Below, in pieces: positions 1,735 through 49,999 of a stretch of 64,000 bases of DNA (its first letter is position 1; each line of letters begins with the position of its first letter). The notes under the pieces are model-generated. The model did not search any database. It saw only the letters and a list, made by a program, of their open reading frames with translations, and was not told the DNA's origin. Made by a program: the position numbers and the translations under genes. This DNA comes from Paenibacillus senegalimassiliensis. GTDB taxonomy: Bacteria > Bacillota > Bacilli > Paenibacillales > Paenibacillaceae. The stretch is taken from the NCBI RefSeq assembly GCF_001486585.1, contig NZ_LN909044.1, positions 563,488 to 627,487 of the forward strand. Direction: 5' to 3'.

Positions 1735-1752
1735 CCTTGAATTTACTATATC

Positions 1753-1935
1753 AGTTGAACTAAAGAAAAGGCATAACAAGCAAGCGAGAAAAATGATTCT
1801 GAAGAAGCGGAGCGTTCGCCTTTGGGAATGGATTTCTACCTTATAAGAATTTATTGAATAAAAGAAATCCATGAGCAACAGCGATCGTAAGAACATTTTC
1901 TCGTCTGCTTCTTTGCGTTAAACATAAGTTCAACT
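1753..1935 (+). repeat. Dispersed repeat, family 2, copy 1 (MITE-like)
   Basis: About 183 bp bounded by AGTTGAACT (1753-1761) and its exact complement AGTTCAACT (1927-1935). Both outer arms match, in inverted orientation, the segment at 49819-49999: about 65 nt on one side and about 40 nt on the other are nearly identical, while the middle differs. The middle here holds a 10-bp stem (ATGGATTTCT with AGAAATCCAT, ending at 1874) directly followed by GAGCAAC. It lies between the convergent PAP2 and chemoreceptor genes and fills most of this 348-bp gap. There is no coding potential. Confidence 0.75.
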
Positions 1936-1962
1936 TATATAGCACTAATCTATTGCTGCTTC

Positions 1963-7670: not shown

Positions 7671-7834
7671 TTCTAGGGGGCCTGTCTCCCGCAATCATTT
7701 CATCCTCGTTAATTCCTTAGCTTATGCCGCAAAGACCATCAGAGAGCGGCGAATACATGATGCCGGCCAGTCGGAGTGCCCCCGCGCTCGCGGCTGGCTG
7801 TGCGTTCTTGTCAGATTATTTTCTAATAATGAAA

Positions 7835-8000
7835 GTTCAAAAAGTTGGGTTTACAGGACCAAGAAGGTTGGATGAAGCTGGGACTGAGTAGCGGAGCGTA
7901 GACAGATCTACGTGAGCAACGGAAGGCTCGGCTGAATTCAAGATTCGATGTCGAATTTACTCCATGAGCAACTCCGTCCTGGGAAGACAACTTTTTGAAC
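7835..8000 (+). repeat. Dispersed repeat, family 1, copy A
   Basis: 166 bp bounded by a perfect 13-bp inverted repeat, GTTCAAAAAGTTG (7835-7847) and CAACTTTTTGAAC (7988-8000). The interior contains GGATGAAGCTGGGACTGAG, GCGGAGCGT at 7891-7899, a small hairpin (CGTAGA/TCTACG) and then GAGCAAC at 7914-7920. It is collinear with the reverse complement of copies at 24617-24885 and 45804-45970. It occupies the spacer between phnD and phnC and ends 15 bp before the phnC ribosome binding site. The preceding 7671-7834 shows no gene, only weak GC-rich inverted repeats. Confidence 0.85.
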
Positions 8001-8025
8001 TACCTTTCAATAAAGGAGTTTTTCT

Positions 8026-16375: not shown

Positions 16376-16449
16376 CATAGGTGCAAGGTGCAGTAGACAC
16401 TTAGTACACTTAACAAGCTTAGCGCACTTGCCGAACTTAGCAGGAAAAA

Positions 16450-16625
16450 CTCCCGCTAATTGTTAATGTTTGTGCTGCAAATAGTGATTAACTGGAAATC
16501 CTCCATATAATATTGCCTGAATCACCCATTGAGGCTGAAATCGGGGCAATTAGATGAAGGATTTCCCTATAAATCGCTGATTTTGCTTATTTTGGTGAAA
16601 TTAACGGGAGGATTTCCCTATAAAG
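16450..16625. repeat. Dispersed repeat, family 3, copy 1
   Basis: About 176 bp in the convergent gap between the nuclease-like gene and the transporter. It has four short units: CTCCCGCTAAT at 16450, AACTGGAAATCCTCCATATAAT, AGGATTTCCCTATAAAT, and GGGAGGATTTCCCTATAAA at the end. The first two are inverted relative to the last two. Matching segments lie at 47257-47433 and 59206-59390. Non-coding; it accounts for most of this 338-bp gene-free stretch. Confidence 0.75.
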
Positions 16626-24553: not shown

Positions 24554-24616
24554 GCATTTTCATCCAGCGCATAACAAGGAGGAACCTCCCTGCCGAAATA
24601 TATAATATAATAGGTT

Positions 24617-24885
24617 GTTCAAAAAGTCGTCTTCCCAGGACGAAGCTATTCGAGGAGAGGGTTCGACATCGAATCTTGAATTCAGCCGGGCCTAGCATAG
24701 GCTTCCGTAGTATGTTTCCTTCAGAAACATTGTAGTTGCTCACGTACCCATATGCTTCCGAAGTCGTTTTCTCCGAAAACGTGTAGCTCCGCTACTCAGT
24801 CCCTGGCTTCATCCAACCTAAAGCGTTTTGAAAAAACGCACATCGGAAGCATAATCTTCGGTCCTAAAAACTCGACTTTTTGAAC
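24617..24885 (-). repeat. Dispersed repeat, family 1, copy B (long, with hairpin insertions)
   Basis: 269 bp bounded by a perfect 13-bp inverted repeat (GTTCAAAAAGTCG at 24617-24629; CGACTTTTTGAAC at 24873-24885). Its reverse complement is collinear with the copy at 7835-8000, but three extra hairpin modules are inserted: GTTTC/GAAAC, CGTTTTC/GAAAACG and GCGTTTT/AAAACGC. Two of these carry an adjacent CTTCCGA or TCGGAAGCAT motif. It fills most of the 435-bp gap between ada and the kinase-like gene and ends about 36 bp before a ribosome binding site. No coding content. Confidence 0.85.
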
Positions 24886-24988
24886 ACGCACTATCACGCA
24901 CTATAAGGACTTATGAACATCAAGGAGGTGAATCCGTGCGGCGATTCTGGCCTAAGACAAGCCAGTCTCGTCAAGCGCATGGAGAAAC

Positions 24989-36352: not shown

Positions 36353-36377
36353 GAACAATATGTCTTCAAATATAGAG

Positions 36378-36420
36378 AAACGGCCGCATCAGGGTGACTC
36401 CCTGACACGACCGTTTTTTT
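36378..36420. terminator. Bidirectional terminator, shared-sequence type, copy 1
   Basis: AAACGG at 36378-36383 pairs with CCGTTT at 36411-36416; inside, TCAGGG pairs with CCCTGA. Seven T follow. Its sequence is nearly the same as the terminator at 40477-40518, including the loop and the ACACGACCGTTTTTT end. Confidence 0.9.
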
Positions 36421-40458: not shown

Positions 40459-40476
40459 CTATCAAGGTAAGACAAG

Positions 40477-40518
40477 AAACGGCCGTGCCAGGTGGACTCC
40501 CGGACACGACCGTTTTTT
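40477..40518. terminator. Bidirectional terminator, shared-sequence type, copy 2
   Basis: AAACGG/CCGTTT outer stem and an inner stem around a TGGACTCC loop, followed by six T. Nearly the same sequence as 36378-36420. Placed between the convergent CdsA-like and solute-binding protein genes. Confidence 0.88.
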
Positions 40519-45803: not shown

Positions 45804-45970
45804 TTCAAAAAGTCGTCTTCCCAGGACGAAGCTATTCAAGGAGTGGATTCAACATCGAATCTTGAATTCACCCGGGACTTCCGTTGCTCACGTACCCAAT
45901 ACGTACGCTGCGCTACTCAGTCCCTAGCTTCATCCAACCTTCTTGGTCCTGAAAAACCGACTTTTTGAAC
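45804..45970 (-). repeat. Dispersed repeat, family 1, copy C
   Basis: 167 bp bounded by TTCAAAAAGTCG and CGACTTTTTGAA, collinear in reverse complement with the copy at 7835-8000. The core holds a hairpin CGTAC/GTACG (45891-45907) next to GTTGCTC (the complement of GAGCAAC, 45883-45889). The element is the entire spacer between the two permease genes and ends about 9 bp before the ribosome binding site of the second. Confidence 0.85.
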
Positions 45971-46929: not shown

Positions 46930-47240
46930 TATATCCACTGTATAGTTAGCTGCTACTAGATAAGTGGGGCTACTATTGAGATATATGTATGCGCGGAGTG
47001 ATGCGCTTCTATGAAAGCTGTCAGAGCATGCAAGTATCGTGTGCTGAGAATGCGCGTGGTGTGCGTGGTGTGGACACAGTGAGCGAGGGTTGTTACTAGT
47101 CAGAGGGGTGAGGGACGGCGGCGGTATAATCGTGAGGGAAAAGTGAATAGTGAGGGGAGGACAGCAGTGCGATAGTGAAGATAAAGTGCGTATAGTGAGG
47201 GAGTGTAGTAGAGAAAGCTCGAATAGGAGCACGGCCGAGG
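46930..47240. other. Non-coding stretch with purine-rich, GTGAGG-repetitive composition
   Basis: Between the permease terminator and the family 3 repeat lies about 310 bp without a convincing gene. The plus strand is strongly G/A-rich from about 47080 with many copies of AGTGAGG, ATAGTGA and GTGAGGG at irregular spacing. The only frame of length on the minus strand translates to Ser/Leu/His/Pro low complexity without a ribosome binding site and is not a gene. Nothing else was recognised. Confidence 0.5.
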
Positions 47241-47256
47241 AATTTAGTGGGAAATA

Positions 47257-47433
47257 CTCCCGCTAATTATTGGCGATCGTGATAAATAAGGGAATTAACT
47301 GGAATTCCTCCCTATAATCTTATGCAAATCGGCGATTGGGGCCAAAGGATGGACATTTAGCTGGAGGAATTCCCTATAAATCGATGATTTAGCTCGTTTT
47401 GGACAAATTATAGTGAGGATTTCCCTATAAAGG
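47257..47433. repeat. Dispersed repeat, family 3, copy 2
   Basis: About 177 bp, collinear with 16450-16625. Units in order: CTCCCGCTAATTATTGG, TTAACTGGAATTCCTCCCTA, TAGCTGGAGGAATTCCCTAT and GTGAGGATTTCCCTATAAA. The two inner units contain the palindrome GGAATTCC. It lies in the convergent gap between the permease operon and the GH3 gene. Confidence 0.78.
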
Positions 47434-49818: not shown

Positions 49819-49999
49819 AGTTGAACTTATGTTTAACGCAAAGAAGCAGACGAGAAAATGTTCTTACGATCGCTGTTGCTCACAAAGGCGAACAAGCATA
49901 TGCTTAAGGGTGCAGCTTTCTTGCAGAAAGCTTTGACCTTCTTCAGAATCATTTTTCTCGCTTGCTTGTTATGCTTTTCCTTAAATAAACTTATTTAGT
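49819..49999 (-). repeat. Dispersed repeat, family 2, copy 2
   Basis: About 181 bp, the inverted counterpart of 1753-1935. Conserved arms: 49819-49883 and about 49939-49977. The middle differs and contains the palindrome AAGCATATGCTT and a hairpin AGCTTTC/GAAAGCT. On the minus strand it begins at the stop codon of the large hydrolase gene and ends about 15 bp before the GH3 ribosome binding site, so it is an intra-operon spacer. Confidence 0.75.

Follow-up and report, generated by a model that had tools for sequence, protein, structure and literature searches.

A dispersed structured repeat of the Paenibacillales whose inner domain may be selected as folded single-stranded DNA

Near the start of a 64,000-nucleotide stretch of the Paenibacillus senegalimassiliensis genome (hereafter the window) lies a repeat in which stems change sequence and keep their complementarity. 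What kind of element is this, and does it share a core with a second repeat family in the window? The original prediction proposed such a common core, in which a sequence-variable hairpin ends at a constant GAGCAAC. In the repeat of interest, a member of what we call family 2, the words on which that proposal was built are all present: GCGGAGCGT at 1807-1815, the stem strands ATGGATTTCT at 1828-1837 and AGAAATCCAT at 1863-1872, and GAGCAAC at 1873-1879, which directly abuts the stem.

The genome that contains the window (5.06 Mb in 15 contigs) holds 31 family-2 matches, fragments counted, in a BLAST-type comparison with the window copy. In the structured centre of the element, about 130 nt long, two arms enclose a three-way junction; its further parts are the mini-hairpin P3, the short helix P4 and the hairpin P5, whose stem is variable. 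From the outside inward, the outer arm is followed by TTCT/AGAA and then by the junction with P3 and P4, the latter formed by TCGC/GCGA and then TTG/CAA, with P5 atop P4. At four loci of the same genome (L071, L072, L073 and L082), the family-2 core sits inside very different outer arms that still pair. The outer arms at L118, L120 and similar loci contain a symmetric internal loop of purines, in which CGGAG faces CGGAG with the same strand sense in both arms. The features are collected in Table 1, where R1 denotes a covariance model of family 2 and R2 a model of family 1.

Table 1. Features of repeat families 1 and 2 in the window, and loci of related arrangements
Feature	Position	Strand	Remarks
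Family-2 element, whole	1746-1942	+	End inverted repeats TATCAGTTGAAC / GTTCAACTTATA, with CTA and TAG outside
Family-2 structured domain	1778-1910	+	R1 match, 164.4 bits
5' arm: CGAGAAAAATG (P1), TTCT (P2)	1785-1800	+	Partner is 1890-1903
Mini-hairpin P3, GC-GGA-GC, GNA triloop	1807-1813	+	Constant GCGGAGC of the original prediction
P4, 5' side (TCGC, TTG)	1816-1824	+	Partner is 1876-1884
P5 hairpin, variable stem ATGGATTTCT / AGAAATCCAT	1828-1872	+	
P4, 3' side (CAA, GCGA)	1876-1884	+	
3' arm: AGAA (P2), CATTTTCTCG (P1)	1890-1903	+	
Second family-2 element	49844-49967	-	Sub-module at the P3 place; without P5 hairpin
Family-1 element, hairpin CGTAGA/TCTACG	7828-8007	+	R2 match 7847-7956, 125.9 bits
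Family-1 element, sub-modules at three positions	24661-24837	-	R2 match, 58.2 bits; element about 24609-24895
Family-1 element, hairpin CGTAC/GTACG, first word GCGCAGCGT	45847-45958	-	R2 match, 133.5 bits
Opposite-strand family-2 neighbour pairs (loci)	L150, L160, L162, L168, L176, L177, L188, L206, L218, L123, L126		
Family-1 ends with core lost (L335-L340)	C12:320837, C13:512011, C13:81795, C14:175513, C14:779907, C12:91083		

The family-2 fold is accompanied by extensive compensatory change. With a structure drawn by hand on 17 copies, 8 of the 26 pairs have changed on both sides, and none of 500 shuffles reached this value. In alignment A3, which holds 55 matches (52 distinct) from several genera, two-sided changes occur at 20 of the 26 pairs (0 of 500 shuffles); arms P1 and P2 change at all ten of their pairs and P5 at six of seven. 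The covariation score of A3 is 0.343, versus 0.136 when shuffled and at most 0.100 when slid. As had been claimed, complementarity is kept in the variable stems of both families, with 99.0% of cells pairing in A3 and 99.3% in the family-1 alignment A6, percentages that lean toward the structure because these alignments, like the wider family-2 alignment A4, were each made with their own model. Copies without preserved pairing, which the original prediction had named as the contrary outcome, were absent among the copies examined. Its broader view is supported: the element is structured, its stems change yet stay complementary, and it recurs many times in genomes within several repeat contexts. 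Among the non-Watson-Crick cells of A3, G-T outnumbers A-C by 47 to 2, as expected if one strand folds on itself; the corresponding counts are 92 and 32 in A4, in which the arms are less well aligned. Folding of the single strand as RNA also scores (z -6.1).

Family 2 is widespread. Across the genus, 39 of 40 genomes contain R1 matches; the number in each of those 39 runs from 2 up to at least 84, the highest count that the scoring allowed. Across the order, matches were found in 237 of 296 genomes and in 30 of 48 genera, and copy numbers from these order-wide searches are lower bounds because the candidates scored per genome were limited (at most 11 for R1 and 19 for R2). When named genomes were scanned for two conserved family-2 words, at least 117 stretches were found, and the 80 of these that were analysed carry Paenibacillus names except for four kinds of record: Saccharibacillus deserti, Gorillibacterium timonense, a Paenibacillaceae bin and one strain labelled Bacillus sp. 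Several genomes also carry tandem arrays, in which the copies repeat every 198 to 245 nt.

We found no published description of the family-2 repeat in the open-access literature. Rfam 15 gave no match at the gathering cut-off in the 64-kb window, and a search of seven loci at E<=5 returned one chance-level match, mir-135, at 20.4 bits against a cut-off of 59.2. Identity with an Rfam family was rejected, since no score for the window or the seven loci exceeded the cut-off of any family. An origin from plasmids or phages was likewise rejected, relatives of the window copy being found in 2 of 72,556 plasmid records and 0 of 50,697 phage records. Both plasmid records belong to Paenibacillus cellulosilyticus; NZ_CP054609.1 and NZ_CP054613.1 are large replicons of this species that are filed as plasmids, with 4 and 11 places resembling the window element, respectively.

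The smallest helix bears most directly on which kind of molecule folds. R1 had paired column 39 with column 117, where change is effectively one-sided (CG in 35, TG in 18). The covarying partner of column 39 is column 30 (GC in 35, AT in 18, GT in 1 and GA in 1 of 55), and GCGRAGC is therefore itself a small hairpin, P3. Its loop was parsed in 131 of 151 distinct sequences, the other 20 comprising several with a sub-module (described below) at the P3 place and others of regular appearance. Of these 131 loops, 124 are GNA or GNNA (72 of 76 triloops and 52 of 55 tetraloops; an earlier version of the parse gave 85/100 and 54/55), and both types co-occur within 12 of 18 labelled species. The closing pair is C-G in 126 copies. 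According to the available excerpt of the discoverers' report, extraordinarily stable mini-hairpin DNA combines a GNA or GNNA loop with at least two G-C pairs (PMC4686876). The P3 loop obeys this rule, and the part concerning two G-C pairs holds in about four of five copies, because the second pair is G-C in only 104 of the 131 (A-T in 25, G-T in 2). In 38 of the 52 GNNA loops the third position is a pyrimidine (GNYA), and these are therefore not the GNRA loops favoured by RNA.

When the plus strand was folded as DNA, P3 formed in the window core and in L118 and was absent from the minimum-energy form of L072. Nearly all of the 48 hairpins counted in inserted sub-modules end in GAA, GGA, GCA or GTA, with stem ends read by eye. 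The RNA-seq check suggested in the original prediction presupposes that the element acts as RNA; as far as can be judged from sequence, the loop statistics would favour a fold made of DNA rather than RNA, and it is mainly because the P3 loops obey the GNA/GNNA rule that we read the fold as single-stranded DNA. Compensatory changes across genera, together with GNA/GNNA loops whose middle letters are free, point to selection on shape.

The second repeat, family 1, is about 180-190 bp long, or more where modules are inserted. The hairpin CGTAGA/TCTACG of the original prediction exists near 7.9 kb but had been placed one base off, its true position being 7897-7902 and 7907-7912. Near 45.9 kb, on the minus strand, the predicted hairpin is also there, but the accompanying word reads GCGCAGCGT rather than GCGGAGCGT, which leaves GCGGAGCGT in only one of the two family-1 copies that had been cited. 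The genome that contains the window gives 42 BLAST matches to family 1, from a search in which 40 of 123 first-look candidates were scored. R2 detects family 1 in 82 of 198 genomes, representing 14 of 43 genera, with at most 19 candidates scored per genome.

Family 1 also shows compensatory change across genera, with two-sided changes at 13 of the 27 pairs of A6 (0 of 500 shuffles); its further pair types were equalled by 8 of 500 shuffles. The evidence is weaker in an alignment restricted to the genome that contains the window (A5), which has 3 two-sided pairs, a number equalled by 13 of 500 shuffles; within this genome, however, the pair adjoining GCGGAGC is U-A in 22, G-C in 6 and A-U in 1. 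The ends of family 1, AGTGCG..GTTCAAAAAGTCG, were aligned in 50 elements and are unlike those of family 2. A flanking 3-bp target duplication is identical in 23 of the 50, versus 2.9 expected, in a test that compared 49 boundary offsets and 6 lengths; a 5-bp alternative is identical in 19 of 50, versus 1.9 expected, the exact boundary being ambiguous. Among the 100 of 161 ends that were listed, there was no inverted pair at the distance of an insertion sequence and no autonomous partner. At L335-L340, the ends are kept and the core is lost, with as little as about 37 bp remaining between the ends.

The proposal of one core common to both families, built around GCGGAGCGT and GAGCAAC, did not withstand comparison of their words and folds. 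Within the window, GAGCAAC is enriched (22 occurrences versus 9.0 expected, 0 of 100 shuffles), whereas GCGGAGCG alone is not (6 versus 3.1, with 11 of 100 shuffles reaching 6). The genome-wide collection of the combined pattern that had been suggested gave 45 places versus 0 in a backwards control, of which 40 are family 1 and 5 are of the long family-2 type. Among 155 family-2 relatives, GCGGAGCGT and GAGCAAC occur together in 6 and GAGCAAC alone in 25. Searched against 16 loci at E<=10, R1 recovers no member of family 1, and its two matches in those loci (L320 and L317) lie elsewhere within them. In the fold of family 2, GCGGAGC folds back on itself and P5 has GAG at its base; in that of family 1, two GC dinucleotides, one ahead of GGA and the other within GAGC, pair with each other across an internal loop. 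A shared core was therefore rejected, because R1 recovers no family-1 element in those 16 loci, the two words co-occur in few family-2 relatives and they occupy different structural places. Families 1 and 2 are distinct structured families that each range across the order, and the word match between them is best taken as a coincidence or a recurring small motif.

The description of a variable stem beside a constant flank does fit a different part, absent from the original prediction. This sub-module consists of a stem-loop followed by C..CGGAAGC.TA.GC, and it occupies three positions in family 1 and the P3 place in family 2, each position with its own stem. It has 37 exact places in the genome that contains the window, and allowing one mismatch gives 72 versus 27 in a backwards control. 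At 24609-24895 of the window and at L269-L298, it is found at up to three family-1 positions, one of them in reverse orientation. The window holds other repeats as well: two terminator-like sequences (AGAAACGGCCG..CGACCGTTTTTT) at 36376-36419 and 40475-40518 that are 86% alike, and a 193-nt direct repeat at 16433-16625 and 47240-47432 whose copies are 74% alike.

How family 2 is placed in genomes offers further indications. Clusters named by eye from 732 ORFs at 88 loci revealed no gene that recurs beside the element, and a recurring partner gene family was rejected because the clusters read looked like ordinary transport or housekeeping genes. Insertion after intrinsic terminators was also not upheld, a weak result (among 133 elements, the upstream counts are 37 in sense and 38 in antisense orientation, the downstream counts 29 and 19). 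At L156 and L205, in two species, the element lies between a T-box-like leader with a terminator and the start of alaS, the leader and gene being named by eye.

The dispersal of family 2 is MITE-like, with numerous scattered copies of variable number and partly shared end repeats that are mostly flanked by TA. In a set of 171 elements that includes a few near-identical copies, 39 are flanked by TATAAGTTGAAC and GTTCAACTTATA with at most three changes in each, against a background of 10 in 3,823 control windows that may itself include genuine copies. These ends are found in 12 of 21 elements in the genome that contains the window and in 27 of 150 elsewhere, and they are unrecognised in the other 132. 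TA lies on both outer sides of 26 of the 39, often as CTA...TAG, which is expected of a MITE of the TA-duplicating IS630/Tc1 type; the duplication is uncertain because the ends are TA-rich and palindromic. In the nearest genome (G024), the genes on either side of the window copy are both retained, and the matched flanks lie 150 rather than 351 nt apart. The corresponding site has no intact family-2 element and holds a short AAGTTG..TTCAA. This sequence could be a scar, and for that reason gain and loss of the window copy are indistinguishable at this site.

We consider it slightly favoured by the evidence that the window repeat is one copy of a short, palindromic, non-autonomous MITE-like element whose inner domain is selected as folded single-stranded DNA. 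Two ambiguities limit our confidence, namely whether family 2 truly duplicates TA and whether the difference at the G024 site reflects gain or loss. It also counts against this reading that the analysis turned up no enzyme and, among the 100 family-1 ends listed, no autonomous partner. An ordinary MITE would account for the end repeats with TA, the target duplications of family 1 and the deletion derivatives with ends only. Its inner fold would have no role of its own, and its arms would be paired through youth or through DNA processes that keep complementarity. However, the unpaired core words of family 2 are better conserved than the end repeats, which are kept in only 39 of 171 elements, and neither the compensatory changes across genera nor the GNA/GNNA loops with free middle letters sit well with a passive interior. 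We therefore regard this account as quite improbable. It is also unlikely, in our judgment, that the element is transcribed into a functional RNA whose three-way junction serves within messenger ends or as a small RNA. The tetraloops are mostly GNYA rather than GNRA and alternate with GNA triloops, neither the window nor the seven loci gave an Rfam match above chance level, and copy number varies from 0 to at least 84 inside one genus. Strong covariation in one strand sense, with G-U tolerated, does suit an RNA, as does the position of many elements after a gene on the same strand (62 of 92, with 30 that do not; for the downstream gene, 52 same versus 40 other, all with a crude ORF caller). 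In three species, moreover, the element occupies the same place before a gene that we take to be yabS-like, with much of the spacer divergent; yet, by eye, it lies there upstream of the better-conserved sequence near the gene.

A third view, that these are REP-like elements moved by a Y1 (RAYT/IS200-type) transposase, draws on the folded single strand, the high copy number and the tandem arrays. Opposite-strand neighbours less than 1.5 kb apart are head to head in 11 of 13 cases, with mostly unrelated spacers, and one genome (G005) combines a Y1 gene with at least 84 copies. Even so, Y1_Tnp was matched in 20 of the 39 genomes searched within the genus, those with 73, 80 and 81 copies all lacking it, and 30 Y1 loci contain 0 elements. 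In the genome that contains the window, the sole Y1 trace is a broken gene with several stops (G000:C11:27807-28148). A Y1/RAYT partner was rejected because Y1 is missing from high-copy genomes and no element lies in the 30 Y1 loci, all within one genus, and we consider this view very improbable indeed.

If the preferred reading of a MITE-like element with a selected DNA fold is correct, the fold would be extruded when its locus becomes single-stranded, as during lagging-strand replication, repair or DNA uptake. A putative enzyme would recognise the single-stranded fold and help the element to copy, move or survive. A double-strand-cutting transposase, in family 2 one of the TA type, may move the outer envelope, and several envelopes could have come to contain the same folded domain. 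Perhaps, and here we are decidedly more tentative, the three-way-junction fold with its GNA/GNNA mini-hairpin is an order-wide natural DNA structure that is selected in thousands of chromosomal copies. It might then be the recognition site of an undescribed single-strand-DNA enzyme, be it a transposase, a resolvase or a replication factor, whose action moves or maintains the structure regardless of the end repeats around it. If so, selection on folded single-stranded DNA would be readable from genomes through loops that obey DNA stability rules and stems that covary, a ready set of natural DNA folds would be at hand for finding an enzyme, and a common repeat of a large bacterial order would be explained. 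Even without the DNA reading, an order-wide, multicopy structured element with no Rfam match merits description.

Several known systems invite comparison. MITEs of the IS630/Tc1-mariner group are short, with end inverted repeats and TA flanks. Terminal inverted repeats are found in both of our families (50 aligned elements of family 1 and 39 of 171 of family 2). Family 2 further resembles these MITEs in being short, with no gene seen, in its many dispersed copies and in the TA on both sides of 26 of 39 elements with ends. It differs in having an inner fold that covaries across genera and that occurs with other ends or no recognisable ends. The bcr1 repeats of the Bacillus cereus group are structured, mobile-looking chromosomal repeats of Bacillota, a likeness to family 2 that we draw by description only. 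The GNA/GNNA mini-hairpin distinguishes family 2 from the attC sites of integrons, of which it is, to our knowledge, no feature. In other respects attC is similar, since the accessible part of the literature describes a site that conserves its structure, not its sequence, and in which one of the DNA strands folds (PMC2727003), and family 2 also keeps structure over sequence in a proposed one-strand DNA fold. REP/REPIN sequences with their RAYT (TnpA_REP) are, in the excerpts available, high-copy palindromic DNA repeats that are thought to act as folded single strands (PMC8266576, PMC3733652). Family 2 shares with them, as so described, its high copy number, its proposed folded single strand and the frequent head-to-head arrangement of neighbours, whereas it is larger (about 200 bp), contains a three-way junction and occurs in several high-copy genomes from which Y1 genes are missing. 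Finally, the mini-hairpins d(GCGNAGC) and d(GCGNNAGC) are described, in the portion of the report available, from synthetic fragments used in aptamers (PMC4686876). P3 obeys the same GNA/GNNA rule and, compared with the fragments covered there, differs in being a conserved part of a genomic repeat.
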